This document shows positions 1,760 to 60,735 of a stretch of DNA of 64,000 bases, piece by piece. Within the stretch, counting starts at the first letter, position 1. Every line of letters starts with the position of its first letter. The DNA comes from Ceratodon purpureus (taxonomy: Eukaryota; Streptophyta; Bryopsida; Pseudoditrichales; Ditrichaceae), in the NCBI GenBank assembly GCA_014871385.1, contig CM026426.1, positions 24,765,437-24,829,436 of the forward strand, read 5' to 3'. A program made the translations under genes and the position numbers. The notes under the pieces were generated by a model. That model had not been told where the DNA came from. It saw only the letters and a program-made list of their open reading frames with translations, and did no database searches.

Positions 1760-1780
1760 GGGGGGAAGCATCCTAGGATG
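1760..1780 (+). repeat. left TIR of element A
   Basis: GGGGGGAAGCATCCTAGGATG. It includes the CCTAGG palindrome that is scattered through the element and matches the right TIR at 14 of the first 15 positions. Confidence 0.85.
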
Positions 1781-2534
1781 TCTAGGTAGGAACGTCACAC
1801 TGTCATTTCCTCTGAGTTAGAGATTTTTGACCTTGTGATTGGGTTTAGGGAAAATGACTTTTTTTAATTATTGTATTCCAGGAAGTTCCAGCACTCATTG
1901 TTTTTGCATAATATGAAGAGATAATTAGAAATGATTGGTGTTTTGTATTCCTATGAGTTCAGTCTGCTAAAAAATTTAGGAATGTCACAAGGAGAAGTCA
2001 TACAGTCAGGAACTTGTTATAAGTACACGGTGTGTTAGTTTTTGAGATGCATTGATTGGGTTGGGGCGTACAACGTTATGCTACTTGATTTTCTTTTTTA
2101 TTTTGCAATAGGCTAGAAACTAACTTTTAGGGGAATTTTTGAAGTGGCCGCATCCTAGAATTATGAGGGCGCTGGGAATTAGGAAAGGAAATTTGACGCT
2201 GATTTGTATTATTCCAGTTTTGGCACCTAGAATTTTCACTCCTCTAACGGCTTGCATTTGCTGATTGCCTGGGACCTATGTTTTCTAGGACTTAACGACC
2301 TTATAGAATCTGGAAATAGGAAAAGGAAACCGTTGAATTCTAGTAAAGTTGTTCATTCCTAGGACCCTTAGTTCCTTGGCCACTTTAAATCTGTGCCGTT
2401 AGATTGTAATCCAACTGCATGTGACGACACTGCGGTTGGGATACCGTCGTCTCTCTCACCTGGGTTTCCCTCGTCGACACTGTCCGCGGCTGCGAGACCT
2501 CCTGCGCAGTTGAGGTATAGGAAATTTTGTAAGT
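1781..2534. promoter_or_regulatory. left subterminal region of element A, rich in CCTAG words
   Basis: There is no convincing gene. CCTAG or CTAGG words recur here (for example 2153, 2286 and the full palindrome at 2358-2363). It lies between the left TIR and the first inward-facing gene, so it probably holds the promoter. Overlapping open frames near 2368-2584 look like noise. Confidence 0.4.
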
Positions 2535-3060
2535 ATGGGTTCACGAAGAAGTTCTTCAACTGCTTCACAAGCGTTGATCACTGATTTTTTTCAACAAAAA
2601 AGAGTGACAGAACTAGAGGTTGATGAGTGGTTTTTCTATCAGACGTTGATTACTGACTTCTACAGGGAGAGGGAGGAAACAGTAGAAGTTGGTCAATCAG
2701 TTTCAGAGCATAGCTTCACTGATTCAGAGTTCCATAGCCTCCTAGACATAGAGCCGCAAACCCCAATCTCACAATTGAGTTTGAGATACTTAGATTGCAC
2801 TCATGTTTCCGAAACCCCTCAAAATATAGTTGCAAGACCCAACTTCGGTTTTGATTCGGAGGTTCAGTCCCAGATGCGTAAATGCTTGTGGTGAGGTACG
2901 TGCAGAATGTCTCTTCTGGAATGCCTAATGGATTTCTGTCATATTTCATTTAATTTTGTTTTCAAGAATTTCGCAGTCTCTAATCATGACTTCCAATTCG
3001 CAGGTACAAGGTTCGGTACGAAATCATGAAGGAAGTATGCTTGCGGTGTGGTACGTATGA
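2535..3060 (+). CDS. unknown two-exon ORF in element A, possible N-terminal exons of the transposase gene
   Basis: An ATG at 2535 gives about 119 residues, Ser/Thr-rich then acidic, with motifs ITDFF and LITDFY repeated about 25 residues apart. The reading frame runs into a donor at TTGTG|GTGAGG (about 2891). An acceptor TTCGCAG at about 3003 would restore the frame (W-Y-K-V-R-Y) and add two cysteines. A second donor G|GTACGT follows at about 3049. In element B an exon of similar position (56.5-56.7 kb) also precedes the transposase, so these may be its N-terminal exons rather than a separate gene. No domain is recognised. Confidence 0.4.
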
Positions 3061-3372
3061 AGAAGTTCGAAGTAGATTAGAGCTCATAAGCCAGCTAAGT
3101 GATACATAGATAGAGCAGCCTTGTATAATCTGCGTCAGGTTGTCAAAACATTAATGTGGAGTATACTGAGTGGCTGGGGGTAGATACTCCACCGCTCACT
3201 CTCTTTAATAAACTAGCTACTGCATTCCAATCGCTGAAATCATTTCGTAGAGTTGGTCGACTTCCTGTGCAGCCGTTAACTTTGAACAGACATTGTGGTT
3301 GTCATAGTTACGATTAATTTTCCTGCAAGTAGGATCGTTAGTTATTTTTGTTCTTTTCTAACAGTATTTAAG

Positions 3373-5230
3373 ATGGCTCCCCGTAGAGATGATAGACGTC
3401 TTGGAGAAGGTAGCAGAGCCCGATTAGCTATTCAGGAGAACTTAGTTTTGAAAAGGGAGAAAGCGGCTCTCAGACAGAAGAAGTGCCAAGAGAGGAGGAA
3501 GGAGAGATTACAGAGGGTTTGTCAGGATAGTTTAGAGAGTGATGTTAGTGTGGTCAATATCCAAAGGTCCTTTACTCGTGTAGCAGAGGATTTAGCTTTG
3601 AGATGGTTTGATGAGACAAGTAGTAGGGGAATAGAGTATCAACAAGCCTTGCTACCTAAGATTCTCAAGCACAGTATTTGGCGTAGTGTACTCCCTAATT
3701 ACTCTAACATGGAGGTAGCTCACAGTGTAGTGGCAAATATTTCTGAAGGATGGCAGTATGTTAAAGGTGGTCATTTGAAAGACCAACAACGAGCCAGGAA
3801 TGTGATCATTCCCATGCTTCTAAGCTCCAGTGGTATTAGTGCTAGACAGACCAGTTTGTTGACAGGAATTCACAGACGAAACTTGAAGTCTGGTTTGGTA
3901 AGGAGGCTAGCGTTAGAGTCAAAGTCTGATAAAAGCCTGTGGGCTGTTTGTGGACGACAAAGGCAAGTCGATTGTCTACCTCCTCATGTGACGAAGTTGG
4001 TAGAAGACTTCTGGACAGCAAACACCCGAATTAGTCCCAACAGAAAAGACGTCGCAAGAAAACGCATCGGTGTAAAGGAGTGGATTTACCACCCCACACA
4101 TCACCTCACCGAATCTCAGGTCAGTTAATTAAAGTCACTCTGCAATTAACGTCGATACAGTGACTGGTCGATACAGTCTTTGTTATATAGTCTCGGCCGT
4201 GAGCTATAATCCAGGAGTAGTAGTCTCATGGAAAAAAAAAATGTATTGTTCTAGGTTAATTCGCTTAGATAGGATTTCATTTCGTTAATTCCTAGTATTA
4301 TCTCCAGATTTTTCTTCCACATTTCAGTTCTTCGGTTCATTTTGATATTTCCTTGGGATAGTTGATTAATATCATATTTTTCAAGCAATTGAAGTAGAGG
4401 TAATGCTGAAGTACTATCATGTTCAGTGTGCTCATCACGAAACGATGCAGTGAATGCAGCCACTGTTACTTCCTCTTGGACATGATCTATAAGAAACGGA
4501 GAGTAATGTCGATGAATTCTAGGAATGGTCCTGTTTAGGAATTAAAGGAACAGTAACTCAAGGAACAGTAATGCAAGGAACAGTAATGTCTAAATAGAAA
4601 TTGATGTTGTCATGTTTAGGAACGTTAATTCTAGGAAGAGTTATGTATTCCTAAGAATTCAAGTCGTCATGTATTTTTTTATTTTATTTTTATTTTGCCA
4701 CAAAGGAGAAGTCTATTGCAGCAGAACAGTTTATAAGGTCTCACCGAGCGAGACACAGGGCGGGGGTAGTCGTCATTTTTTCCAGTTCCTAGATTCATGC
4801 CATTTTTTTTCCTAACAAATCTTGTGGATTTTGCCTCCTCACCTTTCCTTCTACACGCGATTCAGAGTAGCACATGGTGGCGTCGAAATTGCAGTCCGAT
4901 CTTTTGAGTCACTGAAACCTTGGTTTGTGCGGAGGATGCGGGAGTTCAATAGCTGCTGTTGCAGATACCACGTGCAGATGGCTGAATTGAAGGATGCACT
5001 GAACTTCATGCGCCATGGAACAGTGCACAAAAACTGCTCCTGCCAGTGTGAGGCGTGTCGACCAGAGGGTGGAGAGGGTGTATGTAAAGCATCGAAGGTG
5101 GCTTTTCACTCTGTTACGAGACTCTATGAAGAAGTTTTATGCCCAAAGCCTGAAGAAGAAGAGTTCCATGCACTAAGTTGCATTCGGGGAGATTGCACGC
5201 TGTGTGAAACTTCTCAACTCACTCTTCAAT
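3373..5230 (+). pseudogene. Sola-like transposase gene, truncated before the catalytic core
   Basis: Exon 3373-4119 starts MAPRRDDRRLGEG and is a basic, helical region ending in the motif ISPNRKD and HHLTES before donor CAG|GTCAGT. The second exon (about 4840-5230) carries LKPWFV and a Cys-rich block (CCCRYH ... NCSCQCEAC). Both blocks match element B in order (VSPNRKD; LKPWYV; CCCIYH ... DCSCECDVC). After CTLCETSQ, where B continues into the acidic catalytic motifs HIDFVE and ISDDKKHD, A has nothing comparable, and a different gene starts at 5368. No other segment of A carries those motifs. I read this as a transposase whose DDE core has been lost or replaced. Confidence 0.65.
4548..4595. 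repeat. short tandem repeat, about 15-bp unit x3
   Basis: Three consecutive copies of a unit like AAGGAACAGTAATGC lie between the two transposase exons of element A, among several CTAGGAA words. Confidence 0.7.
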
Positions 5231-5367
5231 GTTTCGTTATTTTCTGTTTGCCTTTAGATCCTCTTAATTAGATTGTAGAAATATAGAAAACTTATGTATG
5301 AATATATTTTTCAGGATCTTAAGTATGAAACTAACTGAAGTACACATTTACTTTTCAGGATCTTTCC

Positions 5368-6235
5368 ATGCCCAGGCCGGTAACTCGTTCAAGACACAAG
5401 GTAAAGCGAGAAGATCTTTCTTCAGCAAAAGACTATTCTGACAACGACAGTCACACGTCCAGTAAGAAGAAACGCAAACGCAAGCAAAGGATTACATACG
5501 AAAGCCCGGTTCAAAGATCTGGGCAGCCTTCTGTTCAGAATTTGGGTTCAACATCTATGCATGTTACAATCTCAGCCCCAGATTCCCCTCCTAAGTGTGT
5601 GACAAAGGACACGGATCAGCTCCCCACTGGGCCTACCAAAAGCAATGATCCGAGGTGAGTTTAGACCGAACTTGGTAATTTGTATTATTTGTTTCCTAAA
5701 TTCCATTGATTTCCAGTTTGTATTGCACTCTAATGTTTAATCTATTGTTTTCCAAAACATAGTTTATGTGCTCATGTCTTTCTTTACAGATTACATTGCC
5801 AATGTTGGGTGTTGTGCAGACCTGGAATTTCACGTGAAGAGACCTTTGAAGCTCCACTACCTCCAAGAATCGTTGCTGCCATCACGGAGTTCCTGAAGGA
5901 GATTCTTACAATGTGTGAAAAGGTTATTCAGGACCTTGAACTTCAAAGATCAGAGCTTCAAGTGAAGCTAAAAACTTTGGGCGATCAAGCATCTTTCGCA
6001 AACTGGACTCAGAGCGAGCTAAAAACTGAACTGGACCTAGCAAAAACGATGATGCAACCCAAGGTGAAGTTCCGTACCTACATTCAGCTCTCAGATGTGC
6101 AGAGAGCAAGGTGACAGTTGCTATGGAGAAGGAGAAGGAAACATCAGACACACTGACCGCTTTGTGTAAAAAACTTGAAGAAAAGCACAAAGCTAACGGG
6201 ATACTAAAAGAACACTTCCAGTTTTCTACAGGATC
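5368..6235 (+). CDS. basic/coiled-coil protein of element A, frame-shifted near its end
   Basis: An ATG at 5368 opens a charged N-terminus with a run of Lys/Arg (SSKKKRKRKQR, a likely nuclear localisation signal). Donor GAG|GTGAGT at about 5655 pairs with acceptor TTTACAG at about 5790 and keeps the frame (R-L-H-C-Q-C-W). The second exon is a long helical heptad region (residues EVI..LELQRSELQVKLK). The frame stops at 6112, but the neighbouring frame continues as coiled coil to about 6235 (EKEKETSDTLTALCKKLEEK), so a one-base indel lies near 6070. It has the coiled-coil character of the RING-like proteins but no RING. Function unknown; a DNA-binding or partner subunit of the transposon is possible. 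Confidence 0.45.
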
Positions 6236-6239
6236 AGGT

Positions 6240-7728
6240 ACGTATATTTAGTACTGTTACTGAGTTCTTTATTGCCGTATGTTGCCTTGTATAAATCTAC
6301 CCATCTATTTACAAATCAGTAGTGATTTTTGACATTCTTTTGGTTTCGCAGTTCTTCCTCAAAGTTGAAGATAAACATCAGTCACCGACATAGACAGATG
6401 GCTGGGCCAAGGATTTCACATATTGTTACAAGTTTGTTTGTCGTGGAGGATGTGAGTCAAATTCCTTTTTGATTTACGGACACAGTGACCCTTTGTTTCT
6501 CCTTACGTTTTTTAAATTCTGAATTCTGAACTTGGCATGACACGAGTATCCATTACATTTTTGTTTTGCTTTTTTAGAACCTTTTGGTGTAGTACATAGG
6601 AAATAATACGCCAATCAGTGACAGCTACTGTGTGATTAACTTTTATCCTAGAAAAAGTAAACAGTATAAAAACATTCCAATTAACAGTTGATGCTTATTA
6701 TGAAAGCATAAATGTTTGGATATCTAATACTCTAGACAGTCATGGAGAATATTCTATTTGCTTTGTATGCGTTTACTTGTTCATTGCAAGTAGAGCTTAC
6801 AATTCTATTCATGTGTAGTAGTATGTGCTGCCCTCATGTCTCAATGTGCTTGTATGGAACGTGAGTTTTTTTTTATAGTTGGGTGTGGGATGATCATAGA
6901 CTTACGGTCCCCAACTGTACTTATGCTGAGTGACTAGGAAAGTAGCATTGGACAGTCATTTCATTGATGAATCTGATTAAACAAATACACATCAGTCTAA
7001 TGTTATTAAAAATTTGTTTATTTGTGAAACCTGTTCTCGTGTTATAGACTTGCAGTCGAAGAATTTAGATCCTTACTTGATTTTGTTTAAATTGTGACAT
7101 TGCAATCTTGTACAATACAAACTCCTTTGCATTTGTATCATGCTCCCTGTTTTTGAAGTTTGATTTTGCTAAATAGATATGCTTTGTGACGAACAAAACA
7201 TAAAGGCTGACTTGTGTAAAGAACCATTTGAAACTAGAAGCACTTCTACCCACGAATTCAGAAAACAATAGCACGGTCGTGGCCGCATACAATACAACAA
7301 AAAGTCAAAGGTTCTAACTTAGCAGGGATCAGAGATGGTTTGCTTCAAAATGGTAAGACTAGTTAGTAATATTGTCATATGAATTAGCAAAAAAAATTGT
7401 GTTGACAATTGTCATTCGCCAGTATATTGTACGATTCGCACAAACAGATATGCAAGAACTTGTATATATTATGAGGACACACCCAAGACACTCTCAGCTG
7501 AGGCTAGGCCTCACTAACCATACATTAATAAGTGTACACTCCAATAAATGGAACTGCCTTTTATTAGAAATGTGCACTGTACATGGCCTATTCATTTACA
7601 AAACATCAAACAAGTCTTTCAAACTTGAATGTTATTTCTAAACCAACTAAACTTGAATAGAAAAGAAACTCTGATTACACCACAAGTAGCTAAAGTCGAG
7701 CAATAAAACTGAAAAAAGGTTCTACTAC
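6240..7728. other. no gene seen (centre of element A)
   Basis: This AT-rich stretch lies between the converging plus- and minus-strand genes. Several open frames exist (7065-7292 minus, 7372-7641 plus), but none has recognisable sequence features or splice signals. A few CTAGGA words are present. Confidence 0.4.
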
Positions 7729-8884
7729 TCACTTTCGATAACTACTCCGTTTGCTTCTACCAGCCCTAGACTCTTTCGTGACCGACTGGGCTTGCTGGTC
7801 CGCCAAAAGTCTCAAAACCTCTTTCTTCTCGGATGTCACCAAAACATCGGTCTTTCCATCCTTTCGCAAATTCCTCTTTGGACAAATACTAGGCTCAGTC
7901 GGGTTATGTTGTTTTGAGATGTTCCTCGCTCGATCCTCCACATTGCTATTCTCTACCTTTTTAGTGAGGGCTGGACAATCACCTTCTCCATTCTCTACGT
8001 ACTCTGGAACTTCCTGAACCACCATCTCCGCTGGACTGACTATAGTAGGTGTTGAGTCAATTTCTAATGTATCGTCAGCCCTTGCGGAACTTTCTAAACC
8101 CAATGCTTCTTCAGTTTCAGAAATTTCTCGAGCGTTACCCTCCACAAACTGTACATTGTCCTCCCCAGGACTGTCACCGCCACAAGTGTCTTAAGTAATA
8201 GGGCCATGTTCACAAACATTTCCTTGACTTGCAACACCAGCAGATAAGCGTCTCGGTTTGTTTAAAACAAATGTTGATGGCGTGCTCAGTAGAGCCTCCT
8301 CGTCATCGAAGGATGATTCATCAGAACTCGACTCCATATCCGGTTCTGTACCTCCAAAGATCTCCATGCTCGCATTACTCTTTAGCCTAGTACCATTAGA
8401 CCTACTGGATGTAGCCTCGATGTCAGGTTCAACACCAAAATTGAAAGCGGAACCCAAGGCCAAAGGTTTCAGCTGACATCTCATTTGCGCATCTTTAGAT
8501 CCCTCCACGGTGGTTGAGCACTCAGGACAGACCAAAATTTCATTTGCACATCTCTTGCAGATTCCATCGTGCCCACAAGGCTGGTTCAAGAACAACTATT
8601 TTTGGTCAGAGGACCACAAATTATTAGTATTTAAACTTCCACCTGAACAACACAATAATACCACAACTAATAATATCGTAAATTGCAAAGTCGATGATAG
8701 TACCTCTAGAGCGAACATGACAGGGTCAACTTGGTGGCAAATGGAGCATGCAACAACGTCTTCAGAATCTTGGGAATTAATTGGCGAAACAAGCGAACTG
8801 TTCTTCTGTCGAACGTCCCTCCAATCTCCATCAGTAGGTTGTTGTAGAGCTGAAGAAGCAGATTGTATATCGCCAGTGTCCTAG
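7729..8884 (-). pseudogene. classical RING-finger gene carried by element A
   Basis: On the minus strand, exon 8884-8704 ends in ACSICHQVDPVMFALE before donor GAG|GTACTA. Exon 8595-7729 begins LFLNQPCGHDGICKRC and continues ...CPEC. Spliced, this gives C-x2-C ... C-G-H-x2-I-C-x2-C-A ... C-P-x-C, a textbook C3HC4 RING like those of ubiquitin E3 ligases. A long acidic, Ser-rich tail follows (SSSDESSFDDEEALL), then basic residues. A single in-frame TAA at 8191-8193 interrupts the tail; the same frame continues to 7729. The RING is upstream of the stop and so could still be made. The 5' end is not clear. This RING is unrelated in detail to the RING-like protein at 9.7 kb and appears to be cargo or a second regulator. 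Element B has a different gene in this slot. Confidence 0.65.
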
Positions 8885-9677
8885 TGGATAGTCAGAATTC
8901 GTTGATTGAACATCTATAAAAATCAGAGTAAAGCAAGGCCCACATCAACCACTGTTAGTAAAAGGAATACGTATTTCCTAGATTTGATTAATTCCTGGAA
9001 TAGGAATCTAATATAAATCACTATAAATGCAGTAAAAGAGTTCCTACTCCAAGTACTTATCCTTTTCGACCAGGAGATTTAACTCCTAGAAAGAAAGAGT
9101 CGTAGGAACGCTACCATTCCGGACATAGGAACCAAAAGTATTGCAGTAGAGACAAGGAAAAATAGGAAACAAAATAGTATTAATCTCCTGTTCCAAAAAA
9201 ACTTTCCAAGCACAAAGGAAAAATAGCAGAGAAGGAAATTATGCTCCTGTGAATACTATAGTACCCTGGGAGACACTCCTTCCCCGAAAGGAAGTGATCC
9301 CGAAAAAACTCATTTACAAAGGAAAGTCTGTGAAACATGAAATACGAAAGGAAGTAATGGGAACAAGAGCATGGAATGATGCATTTGCTAGTATCACAGT
9401 TTCCAGGAAAGGAAGGACAAGAACATCACCTAGTACTTCTGAAAGTAATCTAGGAACTTAGAAAGAAAGGAACGTCTAAAGTATGTAACAAATTTCAGAG
9501 TGTGTTCATGAGGTTACCGATACTACTGGACAAGCGCCTTGTTATTATCCTTGGAAATACATCGTGATGCAAGTACTTAAGGAATTCAAGGAATATGGCA
9601 TAGGAATCACTAGATATTCCATTCCTTACTGTCCATATAGGACGTGTCCGTTCTAAACATCCCATGCCTTGGTACAG
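8885..9677. other. spacer rich in CCTAG/GGAAT words
   Basis: I see no supported gene. Words of the type TTCCTAG, CTAGGAA and GGAATAGGAA are dense (for example about 8978, 9082 and 9450). The plus-strand ORF at 9249-9461 has no features and is probably chance. Confidence 0.45.
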
Positions 9678-11339
9678 TCAAAGAATTAACAGTAACGAAT
9701 GATTGGGGAATAAAAAAGAAAACTTCAGGAAAATATTTTGATGCAAAGGAGGCCCTTGGTTGCAGTAGAGGAGTCTTACCAGACATTGTAGCAACGTTTG
9801 GCTTCCAACTGCTGCATCGGTAGAAGAAGGGGGAGCCTTCTCAGGTTCTAGAAAGCCAAACGATAGTTGCCACTGCGAATCAAATTCCTCGTTGCAAAAC
9901 TTAGCTATACATGTTCTAGACTTCGAACAAAGGGAACTAATGCAGAAAGGATGGTAGCAGTGTCCACAAGAGGCAACAATGATGTCATTGCAGTGAAAAT
10001 GCTTGCCACAAGCAGGACAATTTTCAACGTACACTATGTTGGTTTTGTCATGATCTTTGAGCCTCTCTATTGGTGTCGGCCTGAAACTATCCAGAATACC
10101 TGCCTTGAGCCTAGTATGATACTCAGATATAGAGACTAGAAACTTCTTCGTACAAAGCTGGCTCTCAAGTAAAGAATCATATCGCTTTTGAAAAACTTGC
10201 ATTCCCTTGTTACACCTCTCATAGTCTGCTACAGTAGCTTCTAATATAAAACGTATTTGTCTACTATTCCTTTCCTCACAGAGAAGTTGTTGCTGCAAAT
10301 CTGCGACTCTAGTTTGCAAATCCTCCTCACTTTCCTCTAAACCAGAAACAGATGATAAGTCTAAACCTTCACTCCCTAAGCAATTTTTCCATTGGTCGAC
10401 ATACTTAAAAGACTCCTCAAATGCCAACTTGACTTGCTGAACCTCGGCCAATGCATCGTCAGACAGACTTTGCCTATCATCCCGCATTAATTTTGCGCGC
10501 CTAAGCTCTAACTCCTTATCGTCCCTCTCTCGTTCTAAAACCTTCAACGTTTCTTTCCTTGACAAGTAGTAATTTTGTTTGTCTACTAACAAGTGGTGTA
10601 CCCTTGTAATAAACTTCTCCACTGCATCAGTGATGGCGGTTTGCTCCGAAGCAGTGAGTACACCGCTACGAGAAACTCTGACACGACGTCTACTAGAAGA
10701 CGCAGACTCCATTCTCCCCTTCAAACCTAGAGGACGAGCAACACGGGATGGCAATGGAACCGATGGACAGGGAGAAACACGAATAAATGGAGGTTCTCTA
10801 AAGCCCGAATGGCTTCCTAGTCCAACATCAGTAGTCAAGGCGGAGTTGGGCTCGGAATTTACAGGAAGTGTTCCTAATCCATTTCCTGGGACTCCTACAC
10901 TCGAGACTTGAGAGACCTCAGTGAAATCCGGACCAAGTCTACCGTTCACTCTCTTCTGGGGAACATCAAGTTGTTGGGACCTAGCCTTTCTTGTTAATAT
11001 CAAATTCCGTTGCTTGGAACTTGCAGCAACGGCGTAGGCTACCCAGTTAACTTTGATCTTCATTGACTCAGCAATGACACCCCTTGCAAATTCTAGAGAG
11101 ATGGTGTGATTCATAGAGCGAATGTCCTTTCGAAACACTCGGCGGTAAAGGTCCCCAAACCACCACTGGGAGTCGATAGTCACACAAGGAGGTAAGATCT
11201 TCCACCCATTTTTATCGAACCGTGTGCCAAGGAACTGTGTGATTTCCTCTATCATTACAACATTATCCAATGTCTTCACGATAAGTCCATCCCCACGGAG
11301 ACCCTGCCGTTTAGTGAAGTACTCTAGGTCGTAAACAAC
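9678..11339 (-). CDS. coiled-coil/RING-like protein of element A
   Basis: The exon starts at acceptor TTGTAG|GTTGTT (first base 11339) and is open for about 550 codons to TAA at 9678. The N-terminal part contains WWFGDLYRRVFRKD and SLEFARGVIAES, matching the element B protein (KQFAVGVVLEYQ). Next come a Pro/Ser-rich linker with RRRVRVSR, then about 200 residues of coiled coil. Last is a RING-H2-like module C-x2-C-x11-C-G-H-x2-H-x2-C-x8-C-x4-C with the tail W-Q-L-S-F-G-F. 5' exons between 11.34 and 12.67 kb were not identified. The gene is read inward from the right TIR. It is one of the two least-damaged copies of the family in the window. The RING predicts ubiquitin or SUMO ligase activity or zinc-mediated dimerisation; this is inferred. 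Confidence 0.7.
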   Translation of the reverse strand, partial: VVYDLEYFTKRQGLRGDGLIVKTLDNVVMIEEITQFLGTRFDKNGWKILPPCVTIDSQWWFGDLYRRVFRKDIRSMNHTISLEFARGVIAESMKIKVNWVAYAVAASSKQRNLILTRKARSQQLDVPQKRVNGRLGPDFTEVSQVSSVGVPGNGLGTLPVNSEPNSALTTDVGLGSHSGFREPPFIRVSPCPSVPLPSRVARPLGLKGRMESASSSRRRVRVSRSGVLTASEQTAITDAVEKFITRVHHLLVDKQNYYLSRKETLKVLERERDDKELELRRAKLMRDDRQSLSDDALAEVQQVKLAFEESFKYVDQWKNCLGSEGLDLSSVSGLEESEEDLQTRVADLQQQLLCEERNSRQIRFILEATVADYERCNKGMQVFQKRYDSLLESQLCTKKFLVSISEYHTRLKAGILDSFRPTPIERLKDHDKTNIVYVENCPACGKHFHCNDIIVASCGHCYHPFCISSLCSKSRTCIAKFCNEEFDSQWQLSFGFLEPEKAPPSSTDAAVGSQTLLQCLVRLLYCNQGPPLHQNIFLKFSFLFPNHSLLLIL

Positions 11340-12650
11340 CTACAAAAAGGCACATTAAGCCAAACAGTTAGCAAGAAGTATGTTTTGAAAACAAATCTCC
11401 GAACATAGTAATGAAGCTGACTACGTCAAATAAATAAACACATCAGAGAAAATGTATGAAACCCACACGTCATTTACAGAAACACTTCAACAACAGAGAA
11501 TACATAATTTAGACCCAGTTTACTTCCTTGGAGATGACGTTAATTTCAATCATTGAGAATTCTAAAGACTACTGTGAGCCTTTCTAAGTGACCATGAGTT
11601 GTAGAGAAAGGCTACTCCCTAAAACGAGTTTGCAACCCACTATATAGACCATGAGGAAAACAAATTCGAATCAGCACCCAATACTTGGTAACAAAAAAAA
11701 AATCCAGTTTCTCATTTACCTGCTGTTATCTATACAACGTGCAATGTTAAATCAATACTAAATCACTACAAAGGCTATCCAGTGCAGGTATACAAGATGA
11801 GGAGGGAGGACAATACTGCTAAATTCATCTACATTTTGGGACATCCTAAACCGAAAAAGCAAACAACGACAGCTTGTGATACAACCCAATGCTAAATCCC
11901 TATGTACTTCAAGACAATCTTTAGAATGCGGAATCGAGTCCTTCCAGGCTCTCAAAAAGGAGATCACATTTATAAAATTGACGTGTAACATGTATCCACA
12001 CAGAGTTCTGGACCTAATCATTTCCTTTTGATTCGTAACCTATCAGCAGTATAAGAAATTGTGAGGTCAAAGCATATGAAAACATTCGAGAACACACTGG
12101 GTCGAAAAGGGTGAAAGCAGCAGGCATCGACAAGAAGACAAAGAAAAGACCCACTGCTTTCGCTAGGTTTTGTGTTTCGGGTTCTGAACTTAGAACCCAA
12201 CAAAATATTGTAAGGAAAATTGTCAAGTCAGGTTTTGAAAAACACAAACAACCGAAGCAAAAGATTACCGAATCCATTGGACATGAAACAACGCACAAAG
12301 CTTGGATATGCAACTTTGTAAATGAGGAGAGAGTGAAACATTACCTCTTCGCTGGGGCTCTACTATCGAAGTTGCTTAGAGTTGTTGCTATAAAAATTGA
12401 AAGCCGTAACAAAAAGTCAGAGAATTGTGATAGAGAAGGAACGAGCCGATGCGACATCTACGGCAAAGGGGAGCAAGCCAAACAATGAAGCACAGCTTGA
12501 AACCCTAGACATGCCTAAACCGTTTCCCAAGGATAAAGTTGAGACTTCCTGGTTTTCTAGGTCCTGGACCAATAGAAAAATTGCATTTTATTGTTACGTT
12601 TTTATCACCAGTACCCCCAATTTCCTTGGTTCCTTGGTTCCTAGTGGGCC
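11340..12650 (-). promoter_or_regulatory. right subterminal region of element A; 5' exons not resolved
   Basis: The RING-like gene must start here. A donor-like AGCAG|GTAAAT (minus strand, near 11715) could end a 5' exon, but no frame resembling the first exon of the element B homologue was found. CCTAG and CCTTGG words cluster at 12530-12660 near the right end. Open frames on the plus strand (12111-12488, 12397-12795) look like chance. Confidence 0.35.
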
Positions 12651-20455: not shown

Positions 20456-20459
20456 TGAA

Positions 20460-50614: not shown

Positions 50615-50799
50615 TTCGGCAGCAATCTGATTGCTTTGGATTCCGTCGCGCTCGGACTATTCTCCTGGAAAAGAATCATTTTCGACCATTCAGAAACCTT
50701 CCCGCTCTATCTTCTCCCGCCACATGTAGTTGTTAACACCCAGATCAGCGTCTGTCCCACCAAACCATTCAGTCCACAAAAACTATGAGATATTGAGAA

Positions 50800-51250
50800 A
50801 CAAAAATGGTTGAGGAAAAAATAAAAAAATAAAAGAGGAACGTGAACAATAATAAACAATAAGATGAAGAATAAGAAGGATGAAAGAAAGGGGATTCAAG
50901 GGAAAAGTAAAAGTAAATGAGGTATGAGGAAGGACAAGAAGAACAAAGAACGTTGAAAAAAAAAATTAAAAAAAATTTAAAGAACAAAAATAAGAAATAA
51001 CGTTGATAAAAAGAAAACAAAATAAAAGAAAGTCGAGAACAAGAAGAAAGAAGAAGCTTCAAAAAAATAAATGAAGAATAAGAAGGATGAAAGAAAGGGG
51101 ATTTAAGGTAAAAGTAAAAGTAAATGAAGTATGAAGAATGACAAGAAGAACAAAGAAGATTGAAAAAAATAAATGTAAATAAATAAAATAAAAACAATGG
51201 ATAAGATTGAGAAAATTAAATTAGATGGAAAAAAAATACATGATTCAATA
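50800..51250 (+). repeat. purine-rich tract with a 205-bp tandem duplication
   Basis: The plus strand is almost all A and G. The phrase GAAGAATAAGAAGGATGAAA, then GGGGATT, AAAGTAAAAGTAAATGA and ACAAGAAGAACAAAGAA, occurs near 50865 and again near 51070. The long minus-strand frame (51197-50769) is an artefact of this composition (Phe/Leu/Ser only). Confidence 0.85.
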
Positions 51251-52860
51251 AAGAAGAAAGTTGGAAATAATTTATTTATTTTTAAAGGTGAAAAGAAAAG
51301 AAAATAATAACAATAAGAAATAAGAAGGTTTTCTAGAAAGTCATAAAAGTATATAGAAGAGAAACATCAATACGAAGAATGGACATTTATGTGAATCATT
51401 ATTAGACAACCACTTATAGGTAATTTTGAAATATTACCGCGTATCCACTAATACTCAAGTATTAACTAAGACTTGAAACTTATCTCATACTTTGAAATTG
51501 TATTCCTAGATTATTTAAAATTAAAATCTTTTAAATATCTCAATTAAATGTGAATAACACCTATGCCTATATCTGCTCTTTATGTTTTTTTTTATTAAAA
51601 TTGACAACTTATCTTTGAGTTCTAAATTAACTAAATAAAATATTGCATTACATATCCTAAATTAAACATTACCGTACATTCCATTTATGTATTCATTGAT
51701 ATTTATGATTGTTTATACCTCTACAAAATAATCGTCCAATAAGGTTTTATTTAAGGCCCCATACATGCACATCCATATATAGTTAAATATAAAATAGTGA
51801 TAGGATTCATTAATCTAATGGAGGTAATACTATACCTTCGACATTTTGCGTCTTCTGCTCAATGTTTCATTTTTCCATTCGTTATTTTTTTAATTTTCAT
51901 TTTATTTTTAGTTATTTTATTTGGTTGTTGTTATTTCATTTTTAATTGCCTTTATCATTTTAAATCGCCGTTTTGCATTCAAATTTTGGTTTAAAAAATT
52001 ATAAACGTGCATTTACCCAGACACTAAAGGCACTTAAGACAATATCATGACGTGTCTACTAGTATAATCCTTTCTTATTTTTGGTTTATGCTTCAAATTT
52101 TGTGAAGCATTTGTCTAGTTGCAGTATCTGCCGAGACCCCAAGTAACCTGCGTACTAATAGCTGACATACATGTGTTTTATAATGTAGTGGTCGCTTCAC
52201 AAAGAATAAAGCGGTTCCATTATTGCTCCAAATACCTGTTAATAGTGAGACTCCTCGAAGGCAGTGGAAAGTATGTCTTAAATTTCAGAAGGGAATGTTT
52301 CTGAGTTAAAATTAGAGGGATCATAATAATGCTGTATCCCGGCCTTGTAAATTGAGGAGTGATTTCTGTGGATATTCTTCCGAGGAACAACGTTACCAAC
52401 GGTTTTTGATTATTTTTAAATGTGAACAGCATTACAGTCCCACCTAGGTTATCCATCAATATTGCTACATTACTTTCGTATGCATCATACTTGTCTGATT
52501 TTTATTGCCATCTTTATGTTCAACTAACACTACAACTAGTGGAAGACTCTAATTTGCTTAATGACATTGGAAAATACTGGTATGCATGTAACTCCTTGCA
52601 TATTGACCCAATCAATCAACTTCGCAATGGGAGATAGATAACAATCAGGTACGTTCTCACACTTCACACATGGATTTCAGTCGGATCATAGAAGGTTTGT
52701 TGATTCCAGTGAAATAGTATGAAAATGACTAAGTTATTAAAAAACAAGTTTAATTGCAATAATTATTACTCATTGTCATTTTCCCACAACTGTGCTAAAG
52801 CGTGTCTCACAACATCGACTACTTCTGAGGAGATCTTATATACTGGATCCCCACCTTTCA
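51251..52860. other. AT-rich interior of element B, no gene seen
   Basis: I found no frame with protein-like composition. It separates the SET gene from the 3' end of the transposase and probably includes the 3' UTR of the latter. Confidence 0.4.
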
Positions 52861-53775
52861 AGCAGTATGGGGCGAGTTTCATTTTGGAACTTGCATGCTA
52901 GAACCAGGTGTGATGAAACATGATCTACGACTGATTTTTCAAGATATGTGTATGTGTATTCACCCCGGCCAGACTTTTTGTAATAAGTGCCTTCAATGAC
53001 GAAATCCCTTGCTTCAAATTCGGCACCCCAAGGACACAAAAGAGGAGCCTTCAGTTTATACTTTCGTTTGTTGGCATTGCAAGATATACAAGTCAACACC
53101 CTCTTCATTTGGTTGTTCAGCTGGTACCACAAAATTGTCACCGATGTCAACGACTTCATCTAGCCTCTCTCCTCGGTGTATCTGAATAAATCAGTAAATG
53201 AACATCCTCAGATTATTCTTCATCTGTCCAGCAAAGTCCCAAATTTAAAGAATTTGAATGGGATGAAAAAAAAAAACCTTACAACTGTAACTCTATTACA
53301 GAACTATACCTGCTCGGCTGGGTCGTCAACCAGGGTCTCCAGCTCCTCTGACGGCGCTTTGGGCTGAATTTGTACTGCCCTCCACCTTGGGACATGAGCC
53401 ATTTGCTCACAATTCTCTCAGTCTTTATCTATGCACGATGCACGGAAACACGACAGAGGTCTAACCAGCAGACATGTTTTATTGCTTGTAGAATTTCCCA
53501 TAATGGAATGGAGAGATCTTGAGCCTGCAATAGTGTGACACGCCATCGATGACTCCCTATTGATCTTGTTTTCACCTACCTGCCAAAAGATACGGTGAAT
53601 ATCTCTACTGCTGGTCCCTGCATACAAAGAAGGTGCTCTATCAGAAAAGCCCTGCTGTAAGTACTCAACACATTGGAGTGCGTTTTGCAGCTGCCTCTTA
53701 GGGTTTTGAATCTGTTCAATACGTAAAGCACGCTTCACTACGGCTCTTGCACCATCCCATTCACCTACAATTACA

Positions 53776-53985
53776 TCCAATAATCGTTCAGTAAATCCAT
53801 ATTGACTGCATAGCACATCATCCTCATCCCGTAATAAAGATTCTGCTTCACTCATACAAGTACATAAGTACACTGTCTCCACCCAAGAAGTACATAAGTA
53901 CATACTCTCCAAAAATAAAAGTACAAAAGTACGGAAGCTTCACTCAAAGAAGTACAAAAGTACATAATAACAAGTAACTTTCCCA
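53776..53985 (-). repeat. AGTAC-rich intron of the transposase gene
   Basis: The presumed intron contains about ten copies of AAGTACATAAGTAC-like sequence in irregular tandem. Its 3' end is a good acceptor (ATTGTAG|GTGAAT). The 5' end reads AAAG|TTACTT, so one G may have been lost at the donor. Confidence 0.55.
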
Positions 53986-54934
53986 TGTCCAGTTGCGAAA
54001 AAGTTCCAGATCATAGAGCAGCCTTCTGTGAGACTGGATATCTAGCAACAAAATACATTGCTGAACGAACAAACTGTCATGTTTCTTGTCATCCGAAATA
54101 TAGTAGTGTGTATGTTTTATGGTAATCAAATCACCACTCACATCACGGGCTCTCTGCAAAGTGATATGGACCGACAAGGACACATACTCAGACATATAGT
54201 ACATGCTCAGAACTTCGTTTTGAATCTGGAATTCATAGATCTCTACAAAATCGATGTGGGCAACTATAACTCCCTCGGGCAAACCTTCCATCATTTCCTT
54301 GCACTGCCAATCCTGCCAATTGGTAATAAAATTATGCTTGATAAAGGCTTGAACTTTGGGTTTTAGGTAAGTAACAAACTCCAATGGACTAGTCTCTTCA
54401 AATACCTCCTGCAGCCTTTTCTTCGCCTTCCCTATCTCACGGTTAGTGCCAATAGTAACATACGAGAAGTGTTTCCACCTTAGTTTAGGTTCCACCAGTG
54501 AAGACATCTCCTGTGGGCAAAAACCTAGAGTATATACGCCACATTCTTCATAATCACCCATTAGAAAAGAGAGCCTGTGCCATTCATTGAACTCTGGCTT
54601 CTTGCAAAGACAAGCTTCCCACAAATGAGTGATCCTCTTATATACTCTGTGATGAGCATCACAGCCTATACCCTCACCTGTTGCTGTCTCTACAGAAGCA
54701 GAACAAACGTCACATTCACAAGAGCAATCTTTTTGTGCATGCAGTCCCCTCTTCTCCTCCCGTAGGGTGTTCAGTCCTACCCTCATGAGATCCATTTCTA
54801 CATGGTAGATGCAACAGCACACATTACGGTCCCTCAGAGGTTTCACATACCATGGTTTAAGATTCTCAAATCTATGTTGCCCGATTTTACACTCTGGATG
54901 AGCCTCTTTGAAATGCAAAAAGAATGTCGTCTAC

Positions 54935-55500
54935 ACCCCACATACATAAGAAAGTATAATTAGTACTACAGATGTGAACAATCTGAACCTAGAAGTACAT
55001 TGAAAACCGAAAGTACATTCATAGAGTACCAACGAATACATCTTCGGCATTAACATAAATACCACGAGTAGCCTGCCTTTTTAAAAAGTACTAATTAAAT
55101 GTACATAATCAAAACAAAAAGTAGTTTAGTATACAACACTGCCCCCATCGAGTACTACCTAGATTATGTAAACTACATGCGGATTGTACCCTAAATCGTA
55201 ATAATACAAATTACATAAATCCATTTGTACCCAAAGTAATTTTGCAAGTACACTTAATATATGAACTAGCACATGTGATACTAAGAGTACTCTACTGTTT
55301 TCATTAAGGAACATACTTTTGCACTTAGAAATAAAAAGAGTAACATAGGGGAGAATTTTCGACACTGTTAGTACTTCTTTCCCAGTACGTCAAATACTAA
55401 CGGTGTCGAAGTACATCAAGTAACAGCAATAGTGTACAGTGGGATTGTTGTGTATATGCGGTACAAGATTGTTTTCATGCAAAGTATTGAAGACATACCT
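54935..55500. promoter_or_regulatory. AGTAC-dense intron of the transposase gene
   Basis: Between the first two main transposase exons, AGTAC, AAGTAC and GTACTT words recur more than a dozen times. No coding frame. Confidence 0.5.
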
Positions 55501-56505
55501 ACGTGACTGTCAAGTAGTGCTTCGGATGTGTCTCTCCTCTTTTCAGCCCACCGGCCTTGTTCACGATGTCCTTTCTGTTTGGACTTACTCTGGTTTGACT
55601 ATGCCACCAAGCTTGAAATGTAGCAAGAGAGTACTCTGTTGATCCATCTGTGCGTTTTTGCCTGCGAAGGGGTGCAAACCCAGCAGTCCCCTCCTCATAC
55701 TCTTCTCTCCTTTCCAAGGCAGCTTGTATATTATCTGACTTGGTTCCTAAGACATGTGCAAGCGCCCTAACACCCCCAAAATTCCCACTTACAGCAGCAT
55801 CCAAAAGAGCACCTTTTCTAGACAACATATTGTTTGAGAACGGTATGGACACGGACTGTAACTCTGCTCTATAACTCTGAATAAAATAATGAATACTCTT
55901 AGCTTCTAAATCCCGACGATAATAATAAGGTAACAAGGGCCAAACAAGACTATGGCAAAGAACCTTCTCAAGCACAGTTTGACGATAGTGGGGACTAGGA
56001 AGAAGGTTTAGCTCATCACACATGCTGTGCACAATTTTCTGAGCAACCCTAGATGCATCTCTCGTAGAAATAGCATCTGAAATCTCAGACGCTCTGTTTG
56101 TCGTACACGTCTCTCCTCCTTCCGATTCCATGGAAATTCTCTTGCAATGGCATTCCTGGTACAACCAATTGCGCTTTGCCTTCTCTAACCGTGCAGCCTT
56201 TGTAGTTTCCATTGATGAGGCCCTCTGCGCAAGACCAGCACGTCGCGGCCTCAACCTCTGTCTCCGGGCTTGGTCGCCCATGCTACAAGTGATGAGACCC
56301 GTGAGACCACAAAAGAGACTACGCGGTTAGAGAAGGCAGATCACATTCTGGGAAAATAGAGGTTGCAAGAGCGTTGTCCTGGACCTACGTGCAAATACAG
56401 TGGGCAACAAGTACAACATGTTGCTATCAAAGAACATAAATTTGACAGCAAAACAAGTACATAATCAAAACTCAAAAGATGTGCATAAACTTGAAGAGAA
56501 ACTCA

Positions 56506-56725
56506 CCGAACGCACAGGGGAAGGACTCTGACAGTCGGGGTAGCACCTAAGTTCCTGCCGAGAGAGACCGCCCTCAACGATGAAGGATCCAAACAAGGTT
56601 TTGGGAGGCTGGACCAGGCGCTCAAGGGACTGCAGCGCTTGCTTTGAATGATGCAGGTACCAGCTAATATCTCCAACCTTTGAAGTTGGAGTTTTGGATA
56701 CGTGGGTATTGCTAGACACATCATC
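56506..56725 (-). CDS. possible 5' exon of the element B transposase
   Basis: The minus-strand frame reads HVSKTPTSKVGDISWYLHHS, then ALQSLERLVQPPKTLFGSF and CYPDCQSPSP, and meets a donor CGCG or CGGT (TGCG|GTGAGT) at about 56506. The acceptor CTTGTAG at 56283 would join it to the main transposase frame. Position matches the ORF at 2535 in element A, but the sequences are not clearly alike. Confidence 0.45.
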
Positions 56726-57771
56726 TGAGGGACTATCGCATGGATAGGTGGTGAAATGCTGACCTACACTCTCAATCTCTTCGTTGACAACGTCGCAAAC
56801 AGGGTAGTAATGGGTAATTCGCTGCTACACAAGCTGCGGGGGATCTCGCACAACGTTGTAGGATGTTATGAGGGACTGAACTAGTGTGCAGTTCGGAAGA
56901 TGCCCTTCCCCAAACATTTGTGTGGCAAACCCTAGAGATGAGTGCGCCGCAGCTTAGAGTCCTTGCAACTCCGAAAAACAGCTCCAGTCAACGTTCAGAA
57001 CCCTTGCATGCACTGTAGGTGCATGCAAGAGACACCAATTGTAGATGGACAGATTCTAGTGAAATCCATCCACCGATTAAACTAACAGAAGATCCACCTG
57101 CATTTGAAACCGGCTAGATCCACTTATATCGGACCTTATCAACAACGCGTACGGCTGACATGAGAGCCCATTGTAATCCGACGGTCCAAAATTCTGCAGT
57201 AAAGTACTCTAAGTACTTCTGATTTTGGAAGTACATTTTCAACTACTCTTAGTGGCGGCTGCATCAATTCTTAATGTCTAATAAAACAACTGATAAGAAT
57301 GAAATGGCCGTAAGCCAACATGGGGCACACGTCCAGAAAGCCTTCTACGTAGGAAAATCACGAAAGATCCTTGTATTTTAGGAATTCTAGGCTGCGAAAA
57401 AAAAGGCAAAAGGCAGCAAATATTTCCATGGATCTTCAGCTTCTGCTAGTTTTTTCAAGTAGGGTCTGTAGCCTTTTATGAGTCCTATACCATGTTACAA
57501 TATTACAGCAAAAAAGAACATCTAACTAAGCATAAATTTGTACTTTGTATAATTTTTGACAATCTGACATACTTTTCAATTCGGGAAAAGTACTACTTTT
57601 GTTACTCCATACGACTTTTTTTGTGATCTTGGGATTTCAATAACAATGCTAAGCAATGTTCCAATCATATTCTGTAATGGGAAATACATTCGCACAGTTT
57701 TTACTAGGGAAAATAGAGTACTTTATACCGGGTATTTCCAGAAAAGTACTTTTCTGACATACTTTTTAGGG
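56726..57771. promoter_or_regulatory. right subterminal region of element B
   Basis: No gene seen. The short palindrome TGCATGCACTGTAGGTGCATGCA sits near 57006-57028, and AGTAC words cluster towards the end (57190-57770). Probably the transposase promoter and the transposase-binding end. Confidence 0.4.
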
Positions 57772-57772
57772 G

Positions 57773-57792
57773 GGCGTAGTGTGCTGACACCC
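57773..57792 (-). repeat. right TIR of element B
   Basis: On the minus strand GGGTGTCAGCACACTACGCC, followed outside by ACAT, the target duplication. Confidence 0.85.
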
Positions 57793-59290
57793 ACATGGCT
57801 TTGAAGAGTGACTAAATAGACTGCATTTGTTTACTAGGTTTTAGCCACTATCGCACTTACAACCTACAATGGACAGTCAATGGCGCTAGCGCCATTTTGG
57901 ACATGTTTCTAATTTCTTCCAAAAAATTCCTTTAGACACTCAGATGGTGCTAGCGACATATCAAACATGAATTCAAAACTTGTGTTGAAAGTCGTACCAG
58001 CATTCCGTCAGTGTCTGCCACCCACAGATCCTGCAAACAGCGATCTAAGAATTGATAATGAATCTACGTCCTAATTCAACCATTCGCTCCTTGTTATTTC
58101 CGAAATAGAAAGTTGCACGTCAATTTTATCATTAGTCATTTCTGGGTGATGCCCGTGCACTGCCAAGTCCATCCGAATAAGCTATTAATAACGCTGAAAA
58201 CTGAGTCACACACGGAAAATAAAGTGGCCGTAAATTGAAGACCAAAACCTTGTGCTAGACCCAGAAGGCGAATTACAATCCACTCTGTGATCACAAGCAT
58301 AGTAAGATTATTTATAAAGTCATGAAGTTCCGAGAACATGCCGTTGCACCTCGATAGTTACCGACACTTCCTGTTGAATTCAGCTTTGAAAAGGGTAGAG
58401 TATGCATTTGTAGCCCCAAGTTTGTATTGGCGCTAGCGCCATGAGCATGTGGTTAATGACCCTCCTGATTTTGCCACATAGGAACCGTTTAAGTGGATTG
58501 CAAACCTATCCAACCTGTAATCATCTTACTTAGAAACAATACTAGATTACCCGATGCAAATAATGCTCAAATACTATATTTGCTTAACTATAAACAGCCA
58601 TAACTTGAGCGAAAAAGATATGATATTTTGGTCACATGTAAATGCTACTTCAATGGCTGTCAAGTTCTACCATATTTGTCATGTAACATCTCTTATTGTC
58701 TCTCATGTCAAGGCAATGCTTGCGGGGCAAATTACTATAATTCTCATTCCGAAGAAAGGAATGTTTTGAAGAAGGTATAAGTATCGTACCACTGCAGATA
58801 CCACCGAGTCTCAAAACTCAACATTCCATAGAGAGTCCAAAGATATTCCATGTTCAGTCCAACTTCTAAATTGTAAAGTGGGTCTACAACTAATCAAACA
58901 CGCAGTAGCTGTTTCTGAAGACTGTTTGTACGTAGAGCACCAAACTATGAACCATCCCGAATTGTCACGCCCTCAAGAGTCTGGCAGCCAAAAATCAAAA
59001 GGTTAGCGATCCTAACCTTAGCCATTCCAGTGATGACAAGCTTCATCTTAAAATAGGCATAAGCAATCAAATATAGCATAAAAAGTGAAGTGTCAATGCA
59101 GACCTGATATTATCAGCACTCCTTGTCTTTTCTCACTGCACGAGTGCACTTGCGTCGTTGTTGACACGGTCTAGATCTGATTCAACACACGTTCAACACT
59201 GTCAGTCTAAGGTGATTATTGAACTCCACCTTTTCTATGAACGGCACTTGTACACTGACATTGTCTACATTATTTCCACCTTCTTTCAAA
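57793..59290. other. region D resumed; no gene seen
   Basis: Begins with the rest of duplication unit 2 (to 58072), with signature words at 57881 and 57943, then another (TTGGCGCTAGCGCCAT) near 58431. The ORF at 58554-58769 has no recognisable feature. Confidence 0.45.
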
Positions 59291-60325
59291 TTACATAGAA
59301 AAAGCTGACGTGTACATACCTTCAATCCCGCTGAATCCTAAACTCCTCTTCCACTCCGCCGTGAACTCTGAATGGCAATCCTTCCTTGCACAGTGGCCAG
59401 CAAGCTGGTTCTGGATCCCAATACACCAAGGGTGGTATCCACAGCGACATGGTGCCAATACAACTGCGGAAAGAGCAAACCCTTTGTTGCAAAGTGAGCA
59501 TTGGCGGAGAGAAATTGATTCCGCATGAATCGAGGGTCGCCCTTCTTCGTGGTATCGAGTCGGTTGCATGTGGACGACAGTATGAGACCGCATCTCCAAC
59601 CTCTCCAGATACCTCATCAACTTGACCATGGAATCCTTCAACTCCGATTGCAGAGTTGTAAGACGCAGCGCTTCTTTAACTAACTCGTAAACATCGGGAC
59701 CTGCCTCTAGCGGCGCTACACCCCTGGCGCTGCCTCCATTGGCGTTGACGATTGCAATTGCTATGCGCTGTGATTCAATTTGTTCCATTTTGTGATAAAG
59801 GTCACCCACGATACGCTCCTTGACGGCGTCAAAGTAGGTGTTGCTGAAAGCTTCATCTCTGAAGAGAACTGTTGGTTGTACATCGAGGCCCACCTTATAA
59901 CCTCTCCACCCGTCCGCAGCAAACAATGCCCTATTCATCGGATCCATGTGGTAGACCTCAGAGATGATAGCTCTTGCAAAGTTGCCTTGTATGTAACCTC
60001 TATGCCGCAGTTCGTTCTTCTGCCAAATCAGAGGGAACAACTCTTCAACTCTGGTCTTCACCGTGATAGACTTCGCAGCTAGATAGTTATACCATCGCAT
60101 CTTATGACTCTCCCCAAAAATACGAAACAGCTCCTCATCTGTAACGTGATGACAGTCCTTGTTTGGGTTCAATCCTTTGTTTGGAAGTCCAACCATCGCT
60201 GCAAACCAGTACTCCCTCTCCCTTCTAAGCTCGTCCCCTCCTATTTTGACACTCTCTCGTAGAGAATCAAACATCTTCAGTCTTTCTAGGCTATGCTTGA
60301 CACTCTCTTGTATACAACCAAACAT
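59291..60325 (-). CDS. intact coiled-coil/RING-like protein of region D, right copy
   Basis: ATG at 60325 (60323-60325) opens about 344 codons without interruption, making this the best-preserved member of the family. The N-terminal part has EREYWFAAMVGLPNKGLNPN and YIQGNFARAIISEV, corresponding to the FARGVIAES segment of element A. A helical coiled-coil part follows (LQSELKDSMVKLMRYLERLE). The RING-like module is CSLCNKGF, APCRCGYHPWC and HCARKDC, with tail W-K-R-S-L-G-F. The pattern is C-x2-C, C-x-C-x2-H-x2-C, C-x4-C, so the usual first His is replaced by Cys. A donor-like AAG|GTATGT just before the stop suggests that a further exon may exist. It reads inward from the right side of region D. 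Confidence 0.7.
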   Translation of the reverse strand: MFGCIQESVKHSLERLKMFDSLRESVKIGGDELRREREYWFAAMVGLPNKGLNPNKDCHHVTDEELFRIFGESHKMRWYNYLAAKSITVKTRVEELFPLIWQKNELRHRGYIQGNFARAIISEVYHMDPMNRALFAADGWRGYKVGLDVQPTVLFRDEAFSNTYFDAVKERIVGDLYHKMEQIESQRIAIAIVNANGGSARGVAPLEAGPDVYELVKEALRLTTLQSELKDSMVKLMRYLERLEMRSHTVVHMQPTRYHEEGRPSIHAESISLRQCSLCNKGFALSAVVLAPCRCGYHPWCIGIQNQLAGHCARKDCHSEFTAEWKRSLGFSGIEGMYTSAFSM

Positions 60326-60735
60326 CCAAATTAGAAGATCAACCAAGCTGCATCAAGCACGAGCATTATATGTTCCTAAATGACATAATCAATGTAGCCT
60401 GGATTGTCATATTAATAGTATTGAGCAAGCTGGCTTTTTCAGTAATCATAGCACTCATCATGCTGCGCGAGTATAACACTGGAAGGGACACTTCTTATCA
60501 TAAACCTGTCCTTCACCTTGAATATAGTAAGGACATATAAAGGCATTCAACTTAATATTTCTACGTCAACATTAAAGCCGTCCCTTATTAATTTCCTTGC
60601 CGAACACCAAAAACATTTACTACCCTCAAACCAGCACTATCTACCTTCGAACTGCACTGCTTGATTTCAAATCTAGAGAAATCACGAAATGGTTAGAATA
60701 TAGTCCCTGCAAAAATGCAACGCCAGCGCCGCCAT

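Follow-up and report, generated by a model that had tools for sequence, protein, structure and literature searches.

Four transposable elements (A, B, C and D) found in the window analysed in this work, a stretch of 64,000 nucleotides (C6:24765437-24829436) from an apparent moss, each carry a short word of their own: WAGGAA in A, AGTACT and AAGTAC in B, GTGWCAC in C and a 16-bp double palindrome with half-site GCGCCA in D. The words of C and D are footprints, kept above their flanks in relatives located elsewhere in the genome; that of B is perhaps also better conserved than its surroundings, in one direction of comparison only, and A retains the density of its word, not the positions. On balance, we lean towards the view that each word is a candidate binding site, maintained by selection at the DNA level, for a family-specific protein that recognises its sequence and acts on its own element family. 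An initial annotation of this stretch had proposed that every large element has its own symmetrical word. This idea stands for B, C and D, whose words are enriched against shuffled sequence, genome density and anagrams and recur in relatives, whereas the word proposed for A was wrong.

Enrichment of the words

Word counts were compared with those of 200 dinucleotide-preserving shuffles per element. Element C contains 34 GTGWCAC sites in 15419-29692, against 2.2 ± 1.5 in shuffled sequence (maximum 7); the remainder of the window holds a single site, and the one-mismatch neighbours of GTGACAC occur 0-9 times each in the element. In B, AGTACT is present 23 times (4.1 ± 2.0 shuffled, maximum 12) and AAGTAC 40 times (8.6 ± 3.1, maximum 20), while D contains 30 copies of the half-site GCGCCA (4.3 ± 2.1, maximum 13) and seven of GCGCNNGCGC, against 0.0 (maximum 1). 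Across the 362.5 Mb searched (151 contigs), GTGWCAC has 36,239 sites (1.00 per 10 kb, against 23.8 in C), GCGCCA 90,115 on both strands (2.49 against 18.2 in D) and AGTACT 99,675 (2.75 against 15.8 in B), which corresponds to 24-, 7- and 6-fold higher densities in C, D and B, respectively.

The 18-mer AATGGCGCYRGCGCCATT, given originally as the D word, is a consensus: the window has one exact copy and nine further copies with up to three mismatches outside the two central bases, and the genome as a whole has 75 exact copies and none of the reversed pattern. The sequences enriched in D are the half-site GCGCCA and ATGGCGCYRGCGCCAT. Element B, which is inserted in D, was correctly said to lack the D word. 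It has no D half-site in 14.5 kb, and because shuffling expects 1.9 this absence is informative with respect to the density seen in D, not with respect to chance.

The case of A is different. The palindrome CCTAGG formerly assigned to it occurs twice, against 1.6 times in shuffled sequence, and A has instead an asymmetric AGGAA core, so that three of the four words, those of B, C and D, are palindromic. TAGGAA reaches 29 copies (7.1 shuffled, maximum 16), and the best word of A is only marginal (corrected p of about 0.02) once sites less than 60 bp apart are collapsed. For A the reference beyond shuffles was a set of 26 other loci, in which WAGGAA has a density of 13.2 ± 4.9 per 10 kb (maximum 21), compared with 42-57 per 10 kb in four members of the A family.

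In an unbiased ranking of all 6-8-mers, with sites less than 60 bp apart counted once, GTGWCAC is the top 7-mer in two of three C copies and the second in the remaining one (C6:11.7 Mb), and AGTGTCAC is the top 8-mer in all three. The half-site words lead in D; AGTACT is the top 6-mer in a copy of B on C2 and comes second, after CTCCTC, in the window copy; A yields marginal words only. The resulting word-by-element table is near-diagonal. An order-3 Markov null was not retained as the principal test, since such a model already takes up the tetramers contained in the words; under it, the C words are strong, the D words clear, the B words weak (AAGTAC p 5e-4, AGTACT p 0.006) and the A words hardly stand out (TAGGAA p 0.007). 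Motif discovery in B without constraints converged on poly-T. The k-mer enrichment that had been foreseen is hence borne out for B, C and D, with imperfect separation between elements, the word of B being also found in A.

Conservation of the words in relatives

Element C was compared with relatives at C6:11.72 and C6:7.69 Mb, both full-length and 76% identical to it, for which 13.4 and 14.2 kb, with 16 and 20 sites, were fetched, and the sites of 300 anagram words served as control. Sharing 94% identity with each other, these relatives are not independent. The first keeps 13 of the 31 aligned GTGWCAC sites of the window, against 74/391 anagram sites (19%; Fisher p 0.005), and the second 19 of 31, against 83/394 (21%; Fisher p 4e-6). 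In the reverse direction, 13/16 and 19/20 of the sites in the relatives are kept, against 19% and 20%. Identity is 0.89-0.90 at the sites and 0.72-0.73 in their flanks, and at two alignment columns the central A/T is flipped with the word intact.

The D word was surveyed in 20 ten-kilobase loci (L005-L024) around exact copies, picked from the hits listed. At least two D palindromes, with up to three mismatches, are present in 17 of these loci (81 in total), while two scrambled controls gave none. Parts of the D transposase are encoded in eight loci, at 42-50% amino acid identity, and the same eight harbour relatives of one of the two D accessory proteins, RING protein 1 (46-57%); relatives of the other, RING protein 2, are seen in five, and seven loci match none of the D proteins queried. 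The D word has thus remained constant while the D proteins have half diverged, to 42-57% identity. Footprints were assessed in eight pairs of loci. All words are kept in L007/L012 (3/3) and L012/L019 (4/4), with 100% and 98% identity at the words and 64% in the flanks; four further pairs, with flanks at 89-92%, have likewise lost none of theirs (4, 4, 8 and 5), a result of little added weight.

Locus L009 has a 78-bp tandem array (4665-4994) with a D word in each of its five units, one of them imperfect, and D-word hits on C7 show a similar spacing of 78 and 156 bp. Four other loci in the survey were considered for their strong k-mer excess and discarded, for this excess does not come from dispersed words: in L005, L014 and L016 it stems from satellite-like arrays adjoining a D word, in which GGTGTGACC and CCTACACC are abundant, and in L010 from an NB-ARC-like gene with tandem leucine-rich repeats (about 8084-9892, minus strand) some 3 kb from D words.

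For B, reading beyond the window was confined to the C2 copy, which is 90% identical and has more AGTACT sites (31). It retains 21 of 22 AGTACT sites, compared with 51 of 88 for other palindromes matched in composition (p 0.0008). Relatives of A were identified through the RING-like protein (88%, 74% and 45% identity, among 80 genome matches), and the density of WAGGAA persists even in the one with a 45%-identical protein, where AAGGAA is the top 6-mer. As the D and A words remain constant while proteins diverge to 42-57% and 45%, they appear more stable than a picture of rapid, VANC-style turnover would have it. The expected conservation among family copies is consequently seen for C and D, above their flanks, and for B in one direction, and does not extend to the positions of the A word.

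Placement relative to coding sequence

Only 7 of the 62 words of A lie in exons of open reading frames (21.8 expected, p 5e-5), and only 3 of 63 in B (12.7 expected, p 0.001), revealing exon avoidance in both elements. Among six D-like loci, none of 48 GCGCNNGCGC copies falls in protein-matching exons, which make up 21% of the sequence; the D words occupy introns and intergenic stretches. No avoidance is seen in C, where 17 of 34 words are in open frames (17.8 expected), distributed over every codon phase (5, 10 and 2 words). These 17 compare with 3.1 ± 1.5 under synonymous-codon shuffling within eight frames (maximum 8 in 2000). The spread over spacers, introns and even coding sequence noted initially hence applies, as regards coding sequence, mainly to C. 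Words of A and B also adjoin the element ends, and most sites are dispersed, with local arrays such as the 78-bp units of L009 and a 31-bp array at 53858-53968 in B.

Organization of the elements and their proteins

Element A (1760-12671, plus strand) is bounded by GGGGGVAAGCATCC in inverted orientation and flanked by a 4-bp duplication of the target, TGAA, seen in the single window copy; its right terminus is common to its relatives L032, L033 and L034. Its putative transposase (3286-5271; exons 3286-4128 and 4816-5271, plus strand) is related to that of B (25% and 38-39% amino acid identity) and has no Pfam match at E≤1. An accessory protein (9678-11339, minus strand) consists of an N-terminal domain, a middle that looks helical by eye and a RING-like Cys/His C-terminus, and a second RING-like frame, with a better Pfam match, lies at 8191-8595 (minus strand; zf-C3HC4_3, E 2.4e-5, 24.5 bits, still below the threshold of 27). 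Between A and L034, its relative at 88% identity, alignment fails over the 5' part of A (1760-3449); at that place L034 encodes a small protein with the N-terminal domain just mentioned. From its sequence, A looks chimeric.

Element B (43251-57792, minus strand) interrupts D and has GGGTG...CACCC ends flanked by a 4-bp duplication, ACAT. The copy at C2:16.93 Mb has identical ends and a CTTA duplication, so that 4-bp duplications are documented in two copies of B and one of A. The putative B transposase (53944-56326; exons 53944-54930 and 55499-56326, minus strand) returned 22 hits in a homologous-protein search. Relatives of this transposase are abundant, mostly on C6, with 128 matches in one search and clades near 90%, 78% and 55% identity. 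The accessory gene (44566-46236, plus strand) comprises an exon with the N-terminal domain (44566-45129) and a RING-like exon (45619-46236).

Element C (15419-29692, plus strand) resembles Mutator-like elements (MULEs), with 303-bp terminal inverted repeats (TIRs) that are 99% alike and hold two GTGWCAC sites each; the 34 sites extend over 15592-29519, the first at 15592 and the last at 29513-29519. A 9-bp target duplication is present at both ends of its relative at C6:7.69-7.70 Mb, one of the three C copies examined. None is visible at the ends of the window copy, and none was seen in the C6:11.72 Mb relative, in which one end is not intact. The two relatives correspond to L025+L026 and L027+L028. 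More distant, partly alignable relatives of C have 72-75% identity, as at C5:17.09 Mb. A partial second copy (L021:1-3379; C6:24.68 Mb), about 85 kb upstream of the window, is 99.8% identical over the 3.4 kb fetched, pointing to recent activity of C. The putative transposase (16474-19841, plus strand) is read from open frames at 16474-17694, 17513-17977, 18465-18881 and 18882-19841, which have no Pfam transposase match, the last displaying a SWIM-like CxC..CxH pattern by eye. A second gene (23459-28767, minus strand) has a C2H2-like N-terminal part (27946-28767), for which the match is weak and below the cut-off (E=0.0096), and a terminal portion (23459-24499) with an H-D-Q-C Ulp1-like pattern recognised only by eye and without Pfam or PDB support.

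Element D is split by B into a left part (29693-43250, plus strand), with ATGGCGCYRGCGCCAT words and relatives in L007, L009, L012, L015, L019, L020, L022 and L023, and a right part (57793-60735, minus strand). A TIR search for its outer ends and a 9-bp duplication gave nothing convincing. The left part encodes a putative transposase (30714-33811, plus strand; frames 30714-31874 and 33164-33811, the second SWIM-like by eye) and RING-like protein 1 (34811-35299, plus strand), the right one RING-like protein 2 (59291-60352, minus strand), for which a homologous-protein search gave one hit; the two parts may be two D-type elements. Between the transposase frames lies an insertion of about 400 bp with TAAGC-type inverted ends (32184-32588), a second and inverted copy of which (82%) is found at 62845-63217.

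The accessory proteins of A, B and D (RING protein 2) share the N-terminal domain, the helical-looking middle and the RING-like Cys/His end, and the domain spans these three elements although the D transposase is of another type. A profile built from A and D, leaving B out, retrieves the B exon (E=1.9e-7); it has no match at E≤1 in the window copy of C and reaches at best E 0.66 in a C relative. L032, L033 and L034 encode the domain once more, in a distinct small protein that a wider profile matches at E 7e-10 to 4e-7. Pfam, NCBIfam and PDB searches with the domain gave no identifying match, and the idea that it is a BEN domain found no Pfam or PDB support. Its presence within the A transposase was likewise unsupported (hhalign probability 10%, with a template alignment that mixed transposases and small proteins).

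Discussion

In C, the words described here are more frequent within open frames than the encoded protein would demand, whereas those of A, B and the D relatives are depleted in exons and lie in introns, in spacers and near ends. Both patterns fit sites maintained as DNA, each of which would be bound by a protein specific to its own element family. This protein is probably encoded by the element itself and probably a dimer where the word is palindromic (B, C and D). In A, B and D the candidate binder would be the accessory protein that combines the common N-terminal domain with a RING-like end, and in C the product of the second (C2H2/Ulp1-like) gene. With many spaced sites, such a protein could cover every copy of one family and, by analogy with VANC, counteract silencing or switch on the genes of the element, with little effect on other elements and host genes.

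Several observations weigh against this reading. Conservation is uneven: WAGGAA shows no positional conservation between A and its 88% relative (27/38 kept, control 63%) or the 74% relative of the RING clade (3/11, control 29%); the reverse comparison for B is not significant with AGTACT (21/28 against 51/79, p 0.36) and reaches p 0.04 with AAGTAC (31/42 against 494/869); and the D footprints rest on few sites, some of them in near-copies (the flanks of L007, L015 and L019 are 92% alike), with two pairs (L009/L012 and L009/L020) lacking any word in the aligned part. Exon avoidance is not significant in window D (3/25, p 0.11; 1/5, p 0.66), and the frames used for synonymous shuffling in C are stop-to-stop readings rather than verified exons. 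Nor is specificity complete, as A and its relatives show a mild excess of the B word (in A, AGTACT 6 against 3.3 shuffled and AAGTAC 11 against 6.6; 9 and 13 copies, respectively, in L034, and 8 and 4 in L032). Lastly, the accessory proteins score below the curated RING cut-off (the best, B, with E 2.5e-4 and 21.1 against 27.4 bits) and match RING chains in the PDB weakly (E 0.09-0.9). The N-terminal domain was not found in D RING protein 1 by profile search, and loci with RING protein 1 or RING protein 2, which are about 30% identical, share one D word; these two facts weaken the link of one protein to one word.

The words might instead be recombination sites bound by the transposase, like the subterminal repeats of En/Spm and Ac. 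The two GTGWCAC sites in each C terminal repeat and the words adjoining the ends of A and B would suit this explanation, which we deem unlikely given that sites run throughout the interior, in introns and, in C, in open frames. The subterminal TnpA motifs of CACTA/EnSpm elements are short, element-specific, repeated and bound by a protein of the element, and they are confined to the ends. The present words share with them the many-fold repetition of a short element-specific motif and differ in being spread over the element.

Elements could also be exploiting sites of host transcription factors. GGCGCC, within the D word, resembles E2F sites, and GTAC, within the B word, is the core of SBP sites; such half-site resemblance and the location in spacers and introns agree with a host factor. 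We nonetheless judge this improbable, because each family has a different word, densities in the genome at large are lower by factors of 24, 7 and 6 for the words of C, D and B, D needs the 16-bp double palindrome and not a single GGCGCC, and C sites fall within open frames. The least probable alternative, that host silencing targets the words or that they are functionless by-products of mutation, slippage or recent duplication, draws on the copies in tandem repeats (the 78-bp units of L009, the 31-bp array of B) and on the density without positional conservation of A, which would fit drift, but it is already largely refuted for C and D, whose words are conserved above flanks, most sites are dispersed, and the k-mer excess of satellite-like loci (L005, L014, L016) or of the leucine-rich repeat gene in L010 is unlike that of dispersed words.

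The closest precedent for family-specific binding, and the one invoked by the initial annotation, is that of VANC21 and VANC6 (PMC5735166, PMC10398659). VANC motifs (YAGTATTAY; AGTTGTCC/AGTTGTAC) are element-specific and non-coding, share orientation, occur in tandem and differ between close families (PMC5735166; PMC10398659). The elements of the window are similar in having a dense element-specific motif, one per family, located chiefly in introns, spacers and non-coding terminal regions, and in carrying genes additional to the transposase. Enrichment over the genome is found for B, C and D, and for A over 26 loci only; non-coding placement is found for A, B and the six D-like loci, is not significant in window D and is absent from C (17/34). 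The precedent is apt as to non-coding sites in A, B and D relatives and less so as to form: VANC motifs are asymmetric, same-strand, tandem and of fast turnover (PMC5735166), whereas here palindromes make up three of the four words and are mostly dispersed, two words are fixed between distant relatives and one (C) lies in coding frames. The targets of VANC are also reported to multiply through tandem arrays (PMC5735166), which the L009 array resembles, and VANC6 motifs are noted in the unrelated AT9TSD1. The pattern seen here is carried by elements other than VANDALs, and scanning ten C frames one at a time gave no Pfam match to DUF1985/DUF287, the VANC domains. We therefore suggest that the system may work like VANC, and do not claim membership in VANC/VANDAL. 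Among the open-licence papers listed by our searches, no title or abstract on such words was found outside the VANC work.

The assertion that more than one transposon type is involved appears sound on sequence grounds. Element C is MULE-like in its long TIRs, in the 9-bp duplication of a relative and in its SWIM-like pattern; it departs from MULEs in lacking a Pfam transposase match and, in the window copy, a target duplication. The transposases of A and B, which are related and accompanied by 4-bp duplications, have no match to those of C or D at E≤1e-3. Lanisha elements are reportedly linked to the moss Ceratodon and, compared by description, A and B resemble the Lanisha/CMCT clade in their short target duplications and in transposases unlike those of C and D. 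The Lanisha proposal is credited to Maumus, McDaniel and Carey in PMC12730594, according to which CMCT elements mostly begin with CA; A and B, unlike most of them, begin with GGG.

A broader and more tentative proposition, which we regard as possible without favouring it, is that unrelated transposon types have acquired private DNA address codes, either independently or by exchange of an accessory module, with a self-encoded dimer recognising its own family. The exchanged module would be the shared N-terminal domain plus the RING-like end; the code of C would have been written into open frames, and that of D fixed while its proteins diverged to 42-57% identity. This would constitute a general system of self-recognition in plant DNA transposons, of which Arabidopsis VANC would be one case. 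The words are specific enough for direct testing, that of D being a 16-bp palindrome and that of C 24-fold enriched. If our reading is correct, the search for private words would provide a purely computational route to new DNA-binding specificities and their proteins, and sequence-specific self-recognition by transposons would extend past the VANDALs of Arabidopsis to other transposon types in an apparent moss.

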